Source: Candidatus Woesearchaeota archaeon
GTDB lineage: Archaea; Nanobdellota; Nanobdellia; Woesearchaeales; GW2011-AR9
Direction of reading: 5' to 3'
DNA: 45,374 bases
Assembly: GCA_945861715.1 (NCBI GenBank)
Contig: CAMAVK010000001.1
Span: forward strand, 522,908-568,281
Part shown: positions 1 through 7,408 of the stretch, piece after piece
Layout of the letters: each line of letters opens with the position of its first letter
Numbering within the stretch: position 1 is the stretch's first letter
Translations under genes and position numbers: made by a program
The notes under the pieces: model-generated
What the model was told of the DNA's origin: nothing
Seen by the model: only the letters and a program-made list of their open reading frames with translations
Database searches by the model: none

Positions 1-1
1 A

Positions 2-991
2 ATTCCTTCCGCAATCACCGGACCCTATATTATGGAATATGATCTAGGTGCCATCACTGCAGCATACTTTGGTGGTGCAGAGAATAACATCCGAAGGAGT
101 GAAAGTTCAAATCCTGCCTGTAGCAGCAACCTCAATAGGCCAGGAGAAGTACCAACCGACGTACATCCTGGTCAATATGTTTTCAATTACGAGAAAGGCC
201 CAGATGGAAATATAGTGGTCTCAAGACAAGGAACACTCATAACCGTTCCAGTAGGTTACGATTTTGACAATGCTGGGCATCTCATCAAAGGAACACAAAA
301 CACTTGGACCAAAGATGAACTCAATAGAATAGAGTTTACCGTTGACGGATTCAAAGTAAGCAACATCTTTGGTGACATAAGCGTTGACCCTGCTTCAACT
401 GGGTCAAAACAATGTGTCTTGCAAGTGACAAGTGGCGCAGCTGCAATTCAAGAATCCGGACAAAAGAATATTGGCGTCAGATTCGATCTATTGAATGCTG
501 ACGATCAAGGAAGTTGTACGTATGCAAAAGACCCTGTGAAAACCGGCGGCGTAGGAAAACAATCAGTACAAACCAATATCTTAATCCAAAAGGAACGCTC
601 CATCACAAGCAGTTTGCATCAAAATTTCATGAGTGGCAACTTCAATGAACTTCGTAGCGCCGCAACCACCATCATCACGCAAGAAAAAGGAGACAGCCAA
701 AACGCACAAGCGATCTATTACTACATCGGTTCATTAGTCATGGAACGCGGACCAGGAACAGAAGAGAGCACGCACAATCGAGCAATACAAAATCTCTTAG
801 CCCAATTTTTCGACCGAAAATTCCAAGGCAGAACAATTACACCCTACGACCCATCAACGGTTGCAAGCGATGACTTCCAACATATCGCCGCATACCTATG
901 TCAAATAGATAAAAGCCTAAATGGCCCGTACACCAAAGTCACCCCCGATAAACCCATGCATGAATATTGTGTCGGAAAACTACTTCCATAA
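2..991 (+). CDS. Secreted or surface protein, 5' truncated by window edge
   Basis: The frame is open from the first bases of the window to a TAA at 991, so the true start lies outside; an internal ATG at 32 is not a convincing start. The visible 329 residues are polar, with no membrane segment. Scattered cysteines fit an extracytoplasmic, disulfide-bearing protein. The middle (about residues 100-190) reads as alternating beta strands; the last third is more helical and Gln/Asn-rich. I do not recognise a family. It is the first visible gene of a plus-strand block encoding a membrane-anchored protein and two secreted enzyme fusions, 48 nt upstream of the next gene, so a role at the cell surface is inferred from context only. 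Confidence 0.6.
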   Translation: MPSAITGPYIMEYDLGAITAAYFGGAENNIRRSESSNPACSSNLNRPGEVPTDVHPGQYVFNYEKGPDGNIVVSRQGTLITVPVGYDFDNAGHLIKGTQNTWTKDELNRIEFTVDGFKVSNIFGDISVDPASTGSKQCVLQVTSGAAAIQESGQKNIGVRFDLLNADDQGSCTYAKDPVKTGGVGKQSVQTNILIQKERSITSSLHQNFMSGNFNELRSAATTIITQEKGDSQNAQAIYYYIGSLVMERGPGTEESTHNRAIQNLLAQFFDRKFQGRTITPYDPSTVASDDFQHIAAYLCQIDKSLNGPYTKVTPDKPMHEYCVGKLLP

Positions 992-1039
992 TACCGTTAA
1001 TACCCAAATCCAAATCAACAAATAAAAAGCAAACCAAAA

Positions 1040-1591
1040 ATGGCAGACAACAACGCAATAACTGAAATCCTTGTATTCATCACCTTAGCAGTACTAAGCA
1101 GTGCAGGAGTATTAGCTTTACTGCACTACGACATAGTTCAAGTACGTCCTCCAAGTCCAAACGATCAACCAATACTTAATGCCGAATTCATTCCATTTGA
1201 ACGAGATGGCAATTTAGTAGTACAAAAATTTGAATTCTGCGAATCAGTTACGAACTCATATGAGTGTATCAATCCAAAGAACAGCTTCCAAAAAGGCAAG
1301 CCTACCAGTTTCAAAATCACTATGCAATCCGACACAATTGATCGTCAAGTTAAACTAGAAGAAAACTATCGCATCCTCGGACCACAGGGTCAAGTATTTC
1401 TTGAAGTAGGAGATCGAGAAAGTTTCCATTACGAAAAAACAAGTAGCAAAACAACGGAAATAGTTGCCCTTGCCGATTCCTTCACCGTCTCAACTGATCT
1501 ACCAAGCGGAACATACACCTTAGAAGTCTTCGTAACCAATCCTTTAATCAACAAAAAAACATCCTTAACAAGAACCTTCGAGATGGAGTAA
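1040..1591 (+). CDS. Membrane-anchored beta-rich protein
   Basis: The 183-aa product has one hydrophobic segment near the N-terminus (about residues 8-28, ITEILVFITLAVLSSAGVLA) followed by an extracytoplasmic part rich in beta strands. It ends with a pattern (PSGTYTLEVFVTNPL) typical of Ig-like or CARDB-like folds that build adhesins and surface scaffolds. Two cysteines (in FEFCES and YECINP) may form a disulfide. The stop codon is 2 nt before the next start (1594), so it is almost certainly co-transcribed with the M23-like/hydrolase gene. I infer a surface anchor or accessory subunit; no specific family is recognised. Confidence 0.65.
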   Translation: MADNNAITEILVFITLAVLSSAGVLALLHYDIVQVRPPSPNDQPILNAEFIPFERDGNLVVQKFEFCESVTNSYECINPKNSFQKGKPTSFKITMQSDTIDRQVKLEENYRILGPQGQVFLEVGDRESFHYEKTSSKTTEIVALADSFTVSTDLPSGTYTLEVFVTNPLINKKTSLTRTFEME

Positions 1592-1593
1592 AT

Positions 1594-3753
1594 ATGAAGC
1601 AAAAAAGGGGATTTTTTAAAATTATTTTTTTCTTCCTCTTATCGCTATCATTCGTTTCATCATTCGTTTTTGCAATCGGTATAATTGAAGCTAATCCCGC
1701 AAGAGCTGCTATAATTCAAAAGTGTGGTGCGGGTCTTGAAGGTGATGGAACTCCAGAGTTACCCTGCCATTTTCCCGGATCTACTGTGGGGATGGATTCG
1801 AGTTGTACACCCTATACCTACGTAATAAGCGCTTGGATTGAAGATCAAGACTCGAACGGAGTGACACTTGAAAATCCAGATGATCCTTCTCAAAGAATGA
1901 TTTGCGATGGTACTACCGTTCAGATTCAAGATGATCATTCTTCACCGTCTGTACCCCCACCCGACGCTGAGACCTCAGATAGTTCAGATTTAGATCAAAC
2001 TGCTATCACTCCACACAGTTCATCCATGCAATCAGCTTCCAATACCAACTCTAACCCTCAAACAACACCCTCCCATTCTAATTTAATTGATGAAGCGTGG
2101 CTGAAATTTGCACATCTCACAAATCCTGCACTCGTAAACAAAGTGTGGACTTCAAACGGTTGGCAACAATACGTTCCTCCACAATCATCATCGTCATCAT
2201 CATCCTATATCGGTTCTTCTTCTACTGGAACATGTTTCCCACTTGCCCAAAATAGTCTAAGGCGTATCAGCTACAATTGGGGTAACGCACGTGATAGCGG
2301 TGCAAGATGTCATGCCGGCGTTGATATCATTACCCAGGGTGATGGAACTGTAGTAGCTATCGATGATGGTATCGTAACTCAAGTAATAAGATCATTCTAC
2401 ACCTGCAGTGGAGGACCAAGTGGTGCTATTATGATATACCATCCCTCACTTGGAAAAACAGCAAATTATGGAGAAATAAATTCAGGAGATATCAGGGTGA
2501 ACATTGGAGACCGTATTAACAAAGGTCAAATATTGGGTCATGCAACCGCGTGCGGGATGTTACATTTTGAACTCTATGACGGTCAAATATCAACCAATCA
2601 ACGTTGGAAACCAACTGCAGGGTCAACAGTACAACAAACCCAACATTACTGCGTAGATAACTTTCAGGCGACAAAACCATCATCCTTGGCAAACCCCGAG
2701 ATTCTCATTCGCAGTTTGGAAGGCAGATATTGCGGTGCAGCAAGTCAATCCAATGCACAAAACCCCCAATTAACCACCCCTATAACTCCGGGCTCACTTC
2801 AAGGAACACCTAATATCATCAGCTCCTCTCAAGATCCATCCACAATCACTGCTAAGAATAAATGGCAACAAGCCTTAACAACAACCAACATCGCAGGCAA
2901 AACCTGGATTGTAAAACTCCCAGCAAATGGAGCAAATGATAATTATCACCGAGAAGACACCGGAAGAAATACAATTATATTTCAACCTAATCCCCAAGCT
3001 ACAGGCACCGTTGATTTAATATACTTCTTTCATGGTATTTACGGTTTTAATAGCGATATGGCCGAACGGGTCATCCCGCAAGCAAAAGAAATAGCCGAGC
3101 GGGGTGGCAATGTTATTATCGCATTCCCAGAGTTGCCTTGGTCAGCTGGAGAAAATGAAGTTCTTCGATCAACAAATCGCCAACGCATGGCGTGGAATGG
3201 AGTAGATTCTGATTTTTCGGACTTCCATTCTCAGGTCATCTCAACCATTCGATCTCAAGTTGGTGTAAATCAAATAAATCGTGTCTTTATCGTTGGTCAT
3301 AGCGCGGGAGGAGCAGGTCTAAAATTCACTGCTGTAAATGTTGATGGTACTCCTAAAGACGATTTAGATCAAGTTCATCCAACAGTTATCACCTGTTCTG
3401 ATTGTGATTATGCATGGGGCAGTCCATCCGTGGTAAGAACAGTATATGAGCAATATATCCAAACAACTCCAAACACCAGAATGTACATGATGGTACAAGA
3501 ACCATCTCGTCCAAGTGCGCATGAACCAACTTTATATTCTATTGCACTCTCTCAAAGAATTGGAGGAACAGCAACTCAAAGTTGGAGCTATCAACAAAGT
3601 CCTCGTGTATATAATACTCCAGGCGCAACACCAAATAATATATTTGATGTAATCCCAAATGTTCATTACGTGCCTTTAGCAAAATCCCATGCGCAGATAG
3701 GAGCAAAATCTATTGTATATTCCTATTACCCAGAGTTAATTGGAACATCGTAA
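1594..3753 (+). CDS. Secreted fusion: M23-like (LytM) domain + alpha/beta hydrolase
   Basis: This 719-aa protein begins with a strong signal sequence (basic residues 2-5, hydrophobic 8-30). A Ser/Pro linker (about 110-165) leads to a short motif IDEAWLKFAHLTNPAL (165-180), which recurs in the next protein. Residues about 215-335 form an M23 peptidase-like domain: H240 and D244 (CHAGVD) and H324 (MLHFEL) match the metal ligands. However, the usual catalytic His of YAHL is Glu294 (YGEI) and the first His of HLH is Met322. Residues about 430-719 are an alpha/beta hydrolase or esterase with nucleophile S570 in GHSAGG and an oxyanion-type FFHG at 478-481. Known M23 enzymes cut murein peptides; here the domain may only bind. 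It lies in an operon-like block with another secreted wall-enzyme fusion. Confidence 0.85.
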   Translation: MKQKRGFFKIIFFFLLSLSFVSSFVFAIGIIEANPARAAIIQKCGAGLEGDGTPELPCHFPGSTVGMDSSCTPYTYVISAWIEDQDSNGVTLENPDDPSQRMICDGTTVQIQDDHSSPSVPPPDAETSDSSDLDQTAITPHSSSMQSASNTNSNPQTTPSHSNLIDEAWLKFAHLTNPALVNKVWTSNGWQQYVPPQSSSSSSSYIGSSSTGTCFPLAQNSLRRISYNWGNARDSGARCHAGVDIITQGDGTVVAIDDGIVTQVIRSFYTCSGGPSGAIMIYHPSLGKTANYGEINSGDIRVNIGDRINKGQILGHATACGMLHFELYDGQISTNQRWKPTAGSTVQQTQHYCVDNFQATKPSSLANPEILIRSLEGRYCGAASQSNAQNPQLTTPITPGSLQGTPNIISSSQDPSTITAKNKWQQALTTTNIAGKTWIVKLPANGANDNYHREDTGRNTIIFQPNPQATGTVDLIYFFHGIYGFNSDMAERVIPQAKEIAERGGNVIIAFPELPWSAGENEVLRSTNRQRMAWNGVDSDFSDFHSQVISTIRSQVGVNQINRVFIVGHSAGGAGLKFTAVNVDGTPKDDLDQVHPTVITCSDCDYAWGSPSVVRTVYEQYIQTTPNTRMYMMVQEPSRPSAHEPTLYSIALSQRIGGTATQSWSYQQSPRVYNTPGATPNNIFDVIPNVHYVPLAKSHAQIGAKSIVYSYYPELIGTS

Positions 3754-3799
3754 CCGCATTAATCACCAAATAAAAATAACATTAGCCAACCATTAAACC

Positions 3800-5431
3800 A
3801 TGAAATCATCTTCGAAATTAGTATCCACCAATGTACGAAATTTTCCATTCTCACACATATTCTTACATAGGATATTGTTGCTTTTAATCATCGCCTCATC
3901 AACATCTGCTGCAGGTATCCAACCGGGCCTTACAGGTGTAGGTGTGTGTGCGGACGCAACGATTGCATGTTACGAAGGAACAGCAACTATAATTCATATC
4001 GGTGACTCTCATGTTGCAGGAAGTTATGGACAAAATCTTCATGCAATATTATCCACTCAGGGTTATTCTGTTACATCTTATGGCTGTGTCGGTGCCGATG
4101 CCCAAGATTATGATGAAGGGACAAATTGCAATCCGCGTTTGGGTTCTATACGAATGAGCAATCAAAATTTAAAACAATCTCTTACACTAGTTTCTAAACA
4201 AATTATATCAAACAATCCCTCAAAAATAGTAATTATATCTTTAGGAACAAATTTCTTAAACAATGAGGCAGTAGTAAATCAAGCTGAGAATATTAATCAT
4301 CTTCTTGACGAGTTACCTGCTGATTCCACATGCTATTGGGTAGGTGCTCCGGCATCAACTGCTACTAATGTAAACCCCACTCTCATTAACCAAGAGTTAT
4401 TACCTCTGGTATCCTCACGATGCACATTCATTGATCCAACAACCATGACCAGCTCAACTAATTTGGCAGGTGATCATATCCATTACAATCTTGAGGGTGG
4501 ACAAAAATGGGCAGATGAAGTTGCCAAAATAATCGATCCAAGTGTGCAACTTTCCATCCTTAGTCCTGCTCTTATTAATGATGAATCCGATAATGTACTT
4601 AATGATCAGTCAATGAGTCTCTCTTCTCAAGAAGAAAATCAACCTACATCCCCAACGCCAACCATCTCATCACAAACAAAAAACATCGATGACGCATGGC
4701 TTAAATTTGCCAACCTCATAAATCCGCAACTCGCAAACAAAGTATTCCTCCCTAGCAGAGGTTGGACGGACTACCCAATTGCCTACCCCGCCCCTGTTAC
4801 ACCATCATCACCCACCTCATCACCCACCTCATCACCTGGAACATCTACTCCCTACAACCTTAATCTCAAAGTCCTCCCTGAAGAGCAAAAAGCTTTAGTC
4901 AAATTAGCTGTCCAAGCCGAAGGCATCCCTGAGCACGAATCTTTAGCTCTAAAGTTGGTCGCAGCCGAATCCAGTGGCAATCCAAACGCCATCTCATCAA
5001 CTGGCTGCGCAGGGTTAATGCAAATATGCTCTATTAGTCCAGTTAAAGACATCATAGCTCATCATTGTAAACAAACAAAATTTCTAGGACCACAAATGTG
5101 CGGAACGCTTCAAGATGATCGATTTATTCCAGAGAAAAATATCAGAGCCGGTGTTCGTATTCTCAAACTTAATTTGAAATCCACACAAAACGCGTGCACT
5201 AATGCCAACATCCAATGCGGTGTAGCAGGATATAACATTGGCGCAGCCGTGGTAAAAGACGCCGCCTCTCGTGCAGGAGCAGGTGCTTCATGGGATCAAA
5301 TCTATACTCTAATTACACCAGATGTAATGCGTGCTCACGGCTATACCAGCTCCTACTGGACTCAAGATCGACTGCAACAAAAAATTAACAACCTTGGTCC
5401 ATACATCGCAAAGATTACCTCAAACCAATAA
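3800..5431 (+). CDS. Secreted fusion: SGNH hydrolase + SLT lytic transglycosylase
   Basis: The 543-aa product has a signal segment (about residues 18-38). An SGNH/GDSL esterase-like domain (about 62-246) shows block I GDSH (68-71), block III GTN (149-151) and block V DHIH (225-228), giving S70, D225 and H228 as the likely triad. A linker repeats the motif NIDDAWLKFANLINPQL (295-311) seen in the preceding protein, then runs through Pro/Ser/Thr repeats. Residues about 360-543 form an SLT (soluble lytic transglycosylase, Slt70-like) domain with E390 in AESSGNPNA, GLMQI (405-409) and AGYNIG (476-481). Families with these domains de-acetylate and cleave peptidoglycan glycan strands. Finding both in one archaeal secreted protein suggests action on bacterial walls, which is inference. 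Confidence 0.87.
   Translation: MKSSSKLVSTNVRNFPFSHIFLHRILLLLIIASSTSAAGIQPGLTGVGVCADATIACYEGTATIIHIGDSHVAGSYGQNLHAILSTQGYSVTSYGCVGADAQDYDEGTNCNPRLGSIRMSNQNLKQSLTLVSKQIISNNPSKIVIISLGTNFLNNEAVVNQAENINHLLDELPADSTCYWVGAPASTATNVNPTLINQELLPLVSSRCTFIDPTTMTSSTNLAGDHIHYNLEGGQKWADEVAKIIDPSVQLSILSPALINDESDNVLNDQSMSLSSQEENQPTSPTPTISSQTKNIDDAWLKFANLINPQLANKVFLPSRGWTDYPIAYPAPVTPSSPTSSPTSSPGTSTPYNLNLKVLPEEQKALVKLAVQAEGIPEHESLALKLVAAESSGNPNAISSTGCAGLMQICSISPVKDIIAHHCKQTKFLGPQMCGTLQDDRFIPEKNIRAGVRILKLNLKSTQNACTNANIQCGVAGYNIGAAVVKDAASRAGAGASWDQIYTLITPDVMRAHGYTSSYWTQDRLQQKINNLGPYIAKITSNQ
4801..4860 (+). repeat. Short tandem repeat in the SGNH-SLT linker
   Basis: A 12-nt unit (cacctcatcacc-like) repeats within the coding sequence and encodes PTSSPTSSP-type residues between the linker motif and the transglycosylase domain. 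It is a flexible spacer, and a likely site of length variation. The preceding gene has a comparable run of Ser codons near 2185-2215. Confidence 0.6.
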
Positions 5432-6610: not shown

Positions 6611-7408
6611 ATGCCAGAATTACCTGAAGTTGAAACAATTGTACGCGGCCTAAAAGACAGAATAGTAAGCAAAAAAGTAATAAAAATAGAGATAAAAGAC
6701 AAAAAAGTCGTCTCAACAAAAATAAAAGACCTCCTTCCATTTACCATAACTAATGTAACCAGAAGAGCAAAATATCTACTCTTTCACACCAACACCTCAA
6801 CAACTCTCCTCTGCCATCTAAGAATGACGGGGCACTTTCATTATCCCCAAAACAAAGAGGAAGTTCAATCATCCAAAAAATACCTCGCAGCAACATTCAC
6901 ATTCCACGATAATTCAACTCTCACCCACAATTCAATTCGAAGATTAGGATTTCTCAAACCATGCACTCCCAATGAACTTCATACGCTACTACAAAATCTT
7001 GGCCCAGAACCTCTCATTATCAGTAAAGAAGAGTTCTACCATCGCATAGCAAAATATCAAACCGGAAAAATAAAAGAAAAGTTAATGGATCAAAATGTAA
7101 TAGTGGGTGTGGGTAATATATATGCGCAAGAAGCTCTGTATCAATCCAAAATTCATCCAGCAAAACGCATTGACACCATAACGAAAACTCAATTCAACCT
7201 GCTTCATAAACACATCCAACAAATACTAACACACTCCATACAATTGCAGGGCACAAGCGTAAAAAATTATAGCCACCTCGCGGGCAAGGGTGGTTACCAA
7301 AATCATCTTCAAATTTATCAAAAAGAACAATGCCCAAAGGGTCACGCAACCAATACTCTCACTATTGCCGGTCGTGGAACCTACTATTGTCCAACCTGCC
7401 AGAAATAA
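6611..7408 (+). CDS. mutM: Formamidopyrimidine-DNA glycosylase (Fpg/MutM)
   Basis: This 265-aa base-excision repair enzyme removes oxidised purines such as 8-oxoguanine and nicks the abasic site. The N-terminus MPELPEVETI provides the catalytic Pro2 and Glu3; K54 in RRAKYLLF matches the catalytic beta-hairpin lysine. The H2TH region carries VGVGNIYAQEALYQ. The C-terminal zinc finger is altered: instead of C-x2-C the first knuckle reads CPKGH, so His may replace the second Cys ligand; the second knuckle CPTC is normal. Fpg is mainly bacterial, so past transfer is likely. Transcription probably starts at the ATG from the shared TATA at 6582-6589. Confidence 0.9.
   Translation: MPELPEVETIVRGLKDRIVSKKVIKIEIKDKKVVSTKIKDLLPFTITNVTRRAKYLLFHTNTSTTLLCHLRMTGHFHYPQNKEEVQSSKKYLAATFTFHDNSTLTHNSIRRLGFLKPCTPNELHTLLQNLGPEPLIISKEEFYHRIAKYQTGKIKEKLMDQNVIVGVGNIYAQEALYQSKIHPAKRIDTITKTQFNLLHKHIQQILTHSIQLQGTSVKNYSHLAGKGGYQNHLQIYQKEQCPKGHATNTLTIAGRGTYYCPTCQK

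Follow-up and report, generated by a model that had tools for sequence, protein, structure and literature searches.

The A-B-C-D-E operon and its products

The window analysed here, a stretch of 45,374 nucleotides (nt) from a woesearchaeal (DPANN) archaeon (G000:C1:522908-568281; genome of 1.30 Mb in 8 contigs, 98% complete), opens inside an operon that encodes pilin-like and adhesin-like surface proteins followed by exported enzymes predicted to act on bacterial peptidoglycan (murein). The start of the window interrupts this operon, and by reading 20 kb upstream we recovered its complete order, A-B-C-D-E, with protein lengths of 678, 1865, 183, 719, and 543 amino acids (aa), respectively, and an intergenic spacing from A to E of 38, 48, 2, and 46 nt. 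An earlier note, made from the letters of the window alone, had described a block of four consecutive plus-strand open reading frames (ORFs) with gaps of 48, 2, and 46 nt, and the coordinates of these ORFs (2-991, open at the window edge; 1040-1591; 1594-3753; 3800-5431) are exactly as it gave them. The block is real and longer than described: the first ORF is part of a larger gene and encodes the last 329 aa of the exported protein B, which starts 4.6 kb before the window, and the operon opens with the pilin-like A. D and E occupy the position directly after C, henceforth the slot, and have in common an element of ~35 aa, henceforth the tag, that had escaped the earlier note. The features in the window are as follows; signal peptides were assigned by eye.

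1..991, plus strand: C-terminal 329 aa of B (complete gene of 1865 aa at C1:518301-523898)
1040..1591, plus strand: C, 183 aa, with an N-terminal helix (aa 4-29) and an Ig-like beta-sandwich (aa 58-183)
1594..3753, plus strand: D, 719 aa, with signal peptide, tag, M23 domain, and alpha/beta hydrolase domain
2074..2184, plus strand: tag of D (copy 1), aa ~164-193, LIDEAWLKFAHLTNPALVNKVWTSNGWQQY
2308..2586, plus strand: M23 domain of D, zinc ligands kept and catalytic-histidine motifs replaced
2848..3720, plus strand: alpha/beta hydrolase domain of D, with GHSAGG; recurs in several other slots of the family
3800..5431, plus strand: E, 543 aa, with signal peptide, SGNH hydrolase, tag, and SLT lytic transglycosylase
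3980..4543, plus strand: SGNH domain of E, with GDSH, GTN, and DxxH blocks; model nearest PatB
4664..4786, plus strand: tag of E (copy 2), aa ~292-325, NIDDAWLKFANLINPQLANKVFLPSRGWTDY, modelled as a helix plus a beta-hairpin
4877..5419, plus strand: SLT (GH23-type) domain of E, with the predicted catalytic Glu390 in ESSGNPNAIS...GLMQ
6611..7408, plus strand: Fpg/MutM-like gene (MPELPEVE), outside the system; conserved on the right side of the slot in many relatives

The N-terminus of A (KGQITIYIILGIIILLA) includes a conserved stretch, KKGQVTIFIILG (KKGQVT-FIILG), that we compared with a [KR][GA] site followed by a hydrophobic helix; pilins are far smaller than A, which had no significant match in Pfam, NCBIfam, or PDB. 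Most of 34 homologues of C have the motif [KR][GA]-xxxx-E/Q (KKG-xxxx-E/Q) ahead of the helix, with E/Q at the pilin-like +5 position, and in G000 the motif is degenerate. The structure model of C has predicted local distance difference test (pLDDT) scores of mostly 95-98 in the sandwich. A prepilin peptidase (PF01478) scores over the Pfam cut-off at C3:120366-120698, which together with the two N-termini fits a putative pilin-like processing, and, judged by sequence, both A and C appear to be membrane-inserted and type IV pilin-like. B has a signal peptide, FN3/Ig-like N-terminal repeats, and many cysteines that are invariant among 19 aligned homologues; its Pfam matches (Pur_ac_phosph_N, fn3, and Big_6) are weak, it matches a biofilm-associated surface protein in PDB (E value 2e-6), and it looks like a giant, adhesin-like, disulphide-rich exported protein. 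The earlier note had pointed to the genes before position 1 as a place to look for secretion or adhesion machinery. What lies there is the pilin-like A and the adhesin-like B; no secretion ATPase, channel, or platform gene is present at the locus (no genome-wide search was made), and no type VI contractile-tail gene is among A-C (the genome was not searched for such genes).

E is a predicted murein lytic transglycosylase and SGNH hydrolase. Its C-terminal domain matches Pfam SLT (PF01464) with 57.7 bits (cut-off 21.3, E value 1e-15), and the predicted catalytic glutamate, E390, is invariant in the aligned set. The SGNH domain scores below the cut-off of Pfam SGNH/GDSL (15.8 bits against 23.6, E value 0.016), several of its homologues in other slots score above it, and the domain was assigned from its blocks (GDSH at 68, GTN at 149, and DHIH at 225, with G68, S70, N151, and H228 invariant in the aligned set) and its fold. 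In the AlphaFold model, the SGNH domain (61-248) and the SLT domain (360-540) are separated by an ordered tag (291-328) between disordered linkers. Foldseek comparison with PDB returned the peptidoglycan O-acetyltransferase PatB as the top three matches of the SGNH domain, with OatA at rank 12, and matched the SLT domain, which has a lysozyme-like fold, to MltE, MltF, and MltC. Because the mean pLDDT is only 68, we use this model as support for the fold and not for detail. In D, the M23 domain passes the Pfam cut-off (PF01551, 31.0 bits against 28.7, E value 3e-7) and retains the zinc ligands, HxxxD and a final histidine, in CHAGVDI and LHFE. The alpha/beta hydrolase domain of D falls below the cut-off (E value 0.021), is backed by its GHSAGG motif and by conservation in other slots, and has a weak match to polyhydroxyalkanoate depolymerase. 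Of the four domains named by the earlier note, SLT and M23 stand on their Pfam scores, and SGNH and alpha/beta hydrolase on homologues, motifs, and, for SGNH, the model.

Conservation of the operon and turnover of the slot

We sampled 49 genomes, representing 49 species, from the GTDB family to which G000 belongs. The gene order A-B-C-slot, usually followed by the Fpg-like gene or an enolase gene, recurs across this family, which is more than chance would give, and 43 of the 49 genomes have an orthologue-strength match to A (E value less than 1e-30). Among 193 sampled genomes of the phylum, 166 match A when distant matches are counted and 107 match B, some of them over the FN3-like part only, and A and B are neighbours in most regions examined. 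C and the enzyme slot are confined, as far as seen, to the window's own family; A-B pairs without C or enzymes (L092-L099) are common across the order and the class. Because such pairs are so widespread, we regard A-B as an old, uncharacterised DPANN surface module.

The slot was readable in 36 genomes, including four contig fragments in which a tagged ORF lies at a contig end or before the enolase gene, and it contains one to three exported ORFs directly after C. A wall-lytic domain scores over the Pfam cut-off in 26 of the 36 slots (in one of them only DUF2272, a putative case), and at least six unrelated families are represented above the cut-off: SLT, M15_4, Amidase_2, M23, M74, and Phage_lysozyme2. 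These are accompanied by SGNH, alpha/beta hydrolase, NodB deacetylase, FGE-sulfatase, metallophosphoesterase, and DUF218 domains. M15_4 (PF13539) peptidases are largely confined to this position, 11 of their 14 genomic places in the 49 genomes being the slot or tagged ORFs of the slot type; SLT is less exclusive, a second and stand-alone SLT being encoded elsewhere in many genomes. The order of domains is shuffled from genome to genome, with SGNH-tag-SLT in G000, tag-SLT-SGNH in G061, hydrolase-tag-M23-M15_4 in G049, and tag-Amidase_2 in G091, and in G043 SGNH-tag-SLT-M23-hydrolase is fused within a single protein of 1065 aa. Exchange is evident even between close relatives. The B proteins of G091 and G216 are 81% identical and their slot proteins (Amidase_2 in one, M74-like plus hydrolase in the other) are alike over 75 aa only, the tag-bearing N-terminus; between G168 and G183, B is 77% identical and the slot proteins have just a 67-aa tag region in common. 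The catalytic parts, therefore, change around a kept tag.

Further observations concern single slots. The subtype of M23 domain seen in D, with zinc ligands kept and both catalytic histidines lost, is conserved and also found in the slots of G043 and G049. The tagged slot protein of G168 (L041:9590-12667) combines Exo_endo_phos with two SGNH domains and has no wall-lytic domain, hinting at another target, for example phosphodiesters. That of G217 (L116:10562-15754) is 1731 aa long, has no recognised enzyme domain, and may have a wall-active fold of an unknown type. The gaps of 2-46 nt between C, D, and E contain no small companion gene. At three loci (L125, L133, and L150 in G211, G212, and G210, respectively), ORFs that start with MNKQELAFILQEGEGLKLEFKES or similar directly follow B or C, within the slot or ahead of it, and by eye these resemble AlbA_2/Schlafen-type regulators.

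A tag common to unrelated slot enzymes

Iterated profile searches with the element common to D and E found it in most slot proteins, with the consensus RCkEIDEVW..I......VWDp...W..Y; it is present in 32 of the 36 slots and lies anywhere from residue 39 to residue 1520 of the protein. Because iteration can feed itself, each protein was tested with its homologues removed from the training set. In this leave-one-out analysis, the profile recovered 30 of the 38 slot proteins at an E value less than 5e-5 (D at 8e-7 and E at 2e-9), and it matched none of the other 1701 ORFs at these loci and no reversed sequence, by which chance similarity was rejected. A six-frame search of the 49 genomes gave 37 strong matches (E value less than 1e-4), all of them in slot ORFs or in tagged ORFs with the features of slot ORFs at contig breaks. 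Five tagged ORFs that lay outside the training set (in G053, G193, G199, G209, and G218) all encode wall-type enzymes, that of G209 having SGNH and, as its wall-lytic domain, a sub-threshold SLT only. Genome-wide, G000 has two matches, both in the window: D (E value 1.3e-12) and E (E value 3.6e-14). No strong match was found outside the family in 279 genomes of the phylum (best E value 3e-4), and comparison with PDB sequences gave none that was convincing and none below an E value of 0.019, on which ground we rejected the tag as a known domain.

One tag is thus common to unrelated catalytic domains and confined to the slot, and, therefore, recruitment to a common partner is likely, with A-B-C as the obvious candidate. 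Tag distance tracks C distance when B is allowed for (partial Mantel r 0.40, p 0.0005).

Archaeal origin and possible targets

That the contig is archaeal, as the earlier note supposed, is borne out by archaeal-type ribosomal L1-P0-aL12 genes ~18-20 kb upstream and by the named close relatives of B, all of which are metagenome-assembled genomes labelled 'Candidatus Woesearchaeota', 'Nanoarchaeota', or 'archaeon'. Together with the family-wide conservation these rule out bacterial contamination. No Mur ligase was found in the 98%-complete genome of G000, and in relatives there are no more than one or two Mur-ligase-type matches, which we take for putative FolC-like enzymes; murein synthesis by G000 itself was rejected on this ground, and for the same reason a role of the slot enzymes in a murein of the cell's own is unlikely. 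A phage or provirus module was also considered and rejected: A and C have no PHROG match, the only match of B is weak and to a PHROG of unknown function, viral contigs contain no relative of B, and the phage lysin matches of D and E fall on their enzyme domains. A short-pattern search of genome contigs for relatives of E found none, and alignment with B gave relatives instead.

In cells with no detectable synthesis of murein, unrelated murein enzymes converge on a single position, which makes bacterial peptidoglycan the likely substrate. We consider it probable that the slot encodes tagged, swappable murein hydrolases that a pilin-like surface apparatus displays or delivers against bacterial walls. 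In such a mechanism, A, B, and C would together form a cell-surface apparatus and the slot would supply exported multi-domain cargo that cuts or unmasks bacterial peptidoglycan by means of lytic transglycosylases acting on the glycan, peptidases acting on the stem peptide, amidases, and probable acetyl-esterases. The helix-plus-hairpin tag would dock this cargo to the apparatus, most likely to its operon neighbour C, and the cell would present or release it onto a bacterial partner or prey, the wall of which would be opened for attachment, feeding, or killing, three outcomes that sequence does not distinguish. The active cargo of G000 would be the SLT and SGNH domains of E and the alpha/beta hydrolase domain of D, and the M23 domain may only bind. 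No immunity gene would be needed, because the archaeon has no murein. The more specific proposal of a new archaeal cargo-delivery system, in which A-B-C recognises the tag of 35 residues and brings interchangeable effectors that degrade peptidoglycan to bear on live bacteria as a dedicated route of predation or parasitism, we advance tentatively as a possibility. Attack on, or remodelling of, a bacterial partner's wall was the first suggestion of the earlier note and is the best reading of the recurrent murein-hydrolase families and the lack of a Mur ligase; its second suggestion, a role in DNA or protein transfer, found no specific evidence in its favour.

Several observations weigh against delivery of wall-lytic cargo by A-B-C. 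The slot enzymes bear ordinary N-terminal signal sequences and may simply be secreted, with no need for a delivery machine, and their activity, expression, and localisation are predictions. The model of C matched generic Ig-like folds in PDB (Foldseek) and not pilins specifically. The tag is marginal in one slot (G062) and absent from three (G104, G138, and G196), and its distances also track B when C is allowed for (r 0.30, p 0.001), so that the correlation with C could reflect the linkage of neighbouring genes. Eight of the 36 slots have wall-lytic domains at sub-threshold scores only (SleB-type Hydrolase_2, VanY, M74, glucosaminidase, SLT, and RPF-like), and two (G168 and G217) are without any such domain in the Pfam search. 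In the M23 domain of D, both catalytic histidines (that of YxH and the first of HxH) are gone, the motifs reading YGEI and MLH; for this reason we do not count it as an active endopeptidase, and it may be catalytically dead and serve as a binding module only. Finally, other woesearchaeal families have similar enzymes without the tag or a nearby A-B-C, and because such enzymes also occur without C the enzyme repertoire is wider than the A-B-C system.

Ordinary signal peptides and a small genome would suit plain secreted scavengers that digest the murein of dead bacteria for amino acids and sugars, with the tag as a surface retention module and live cells left unattacked. The SGNH, phosphoesterase, DUF218, and hydrolase companions are in keeping with the processing of debris, and use of peptidoglycan from dead bacteria has been proposed for related DPANN archaea (PMC11537232). 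However, the fast swapping of unrelated wall-lytic families beside conserved pilin- and adhesin-like genes is more like an arms race of interacting cells, and debris feeding alone does not explain the conservation of A-B-C with the slot; we judge scavenging unlikely. Less probable still is that the enzymes are assembly tools and not weapons, opening the wall of a bacterial host locally so that an A-B structure can reach the host membrane, in the manner of the specialised transglycosylases of secretion systems and conjugation. The operon coupling to the pilin-like A and C and the giant B would fit this, as would the wide occurrence of A-B without enzymes in the class, which gives the enzymes the look of an addition suited to walled hosts; yet the multiple lytic activities of each protein, and how rapidly they turn over, go beyond the needs of a single maker of assembly space, and no secretion ATPase or channel gene was found at the locus (no genome-wide search was made). 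Remodelling of the archaeon's own surface glycan or S-layer, with a merely formal likeness to murein hydrolases, would agree with enzymes that are all exported, adjoin surface proteins, and owe their substrate assignment to sequence and models, and is very improbable given murein-specific families (M15_4, M74, Amidase_2, and SLT) and a PatB-like SGNH domain that would have no reason to exist in a cell without murein or, in G000, a Mur ligase.

Murein hydrolases in Woesearchaeota are already known, and the operon, slot, and tag appear to be undescribed. Murein transglycosylases of this group and the idea of a bacterial host or prey have been published (PMC8204110, PMC9723730, PMC10936187), and in one such account exported archaeal proteins from the same broad group, with a murein transglycosylase domain, are suggested to act on bacterial walls, as here; the protein family described there reaches 3000 aa and, unlike the present system, is reported in the available portions without an operon, enzyme swapping, a tag, or a pilin-like linkage. 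The GH23 'vampiristic' Woesearchaeota of Lake A (PMC9723730) likewise pair this lineage with a transglycosylase and a proposal of bacterial predation, which in the accessible text is based on CAZy genes and a TlyC-like gene and gives no locus anatomy. Archaeal murein hydrolases that kill bacteria have been reported, with haloarchaeal M23 proteins studied in depth (PMC12352652); that survey, in which Nanoarchaeota are prominent, resembles ours in its murein-less archaea, exported murein hydrolases directed against bacteria, patchy distribution, and domain shuffling, and differs, in the part available, in that enzymes were searched as an enzyme plus a peptidoglycan-binding domain, with no common tag or A-B-C apparatus. 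Likenesses to archaeal type IV pili, among which large adhesin-like proteins and minor pilins are known (PMC4858521), are the putative class III signal-like N-termini (A and C), the prepilin peptidase, and the large exported partner; here, by contrast, no ATPase or platform gene is at the locus, and A far exceeds a pilin in size. Our literature search, which covered neither preprints nor subscription journals, found no description of the operon, slot, or tag and no paper joining Woesearchaeota, pilin, peptidoglycan, and symbiosis.

The MIX-type effectors of bacterial type VI secretion join a short conserved tag to many unrelated toxic domains. The principle is similar, with no evidence of relation: in comparison with those effectors (PMC4549250), the tag described here is a different one, no immunity genes were seen, no parts of a type VI secretion system were noted at the locus, and the proteins carry N-terminal signal peptides where MIX-type effectors depend on the machine for export. 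Should the tag prove to be a recruitment signal, it would represent an archaeal arrangement of tag-guided, swappable effectors analogous to those of bacterial secretion systems. The tag also offers a simple search key for further cargo whose function is unknown, and a handle in binding experiments. The locus offers a concrete, testable molecular link from woesearchaeal DPANN to bacterial walls, with natural swaps across the family, and bears on whether these archaea live on bacteria; every cultivated DPANN archaeon, according to the available part of one report, depends on an archaeal host (PMC11291902).

Related enzymes were also seen outside the slot. G000 has a second, stand-alone SLT protein of 229 aa (C3:175492-176178; L186:3493-4179) with a Tat-like N-terminus, MEITRRNFLQIS, no tag, and no linkage to the operon, and comparable stand-alone SLT proteins are present in G054 and G062, with RR-motif N-termini, and in G013. 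In other families of the order, an enzyme with SGNH, Amidase_2, and M15_4 domains (G191, L057:9691-12657) and one with M23 and SLT domains (G088, L048:10097-11881), the latter with a stronger M23 score, occur without the tag or C.

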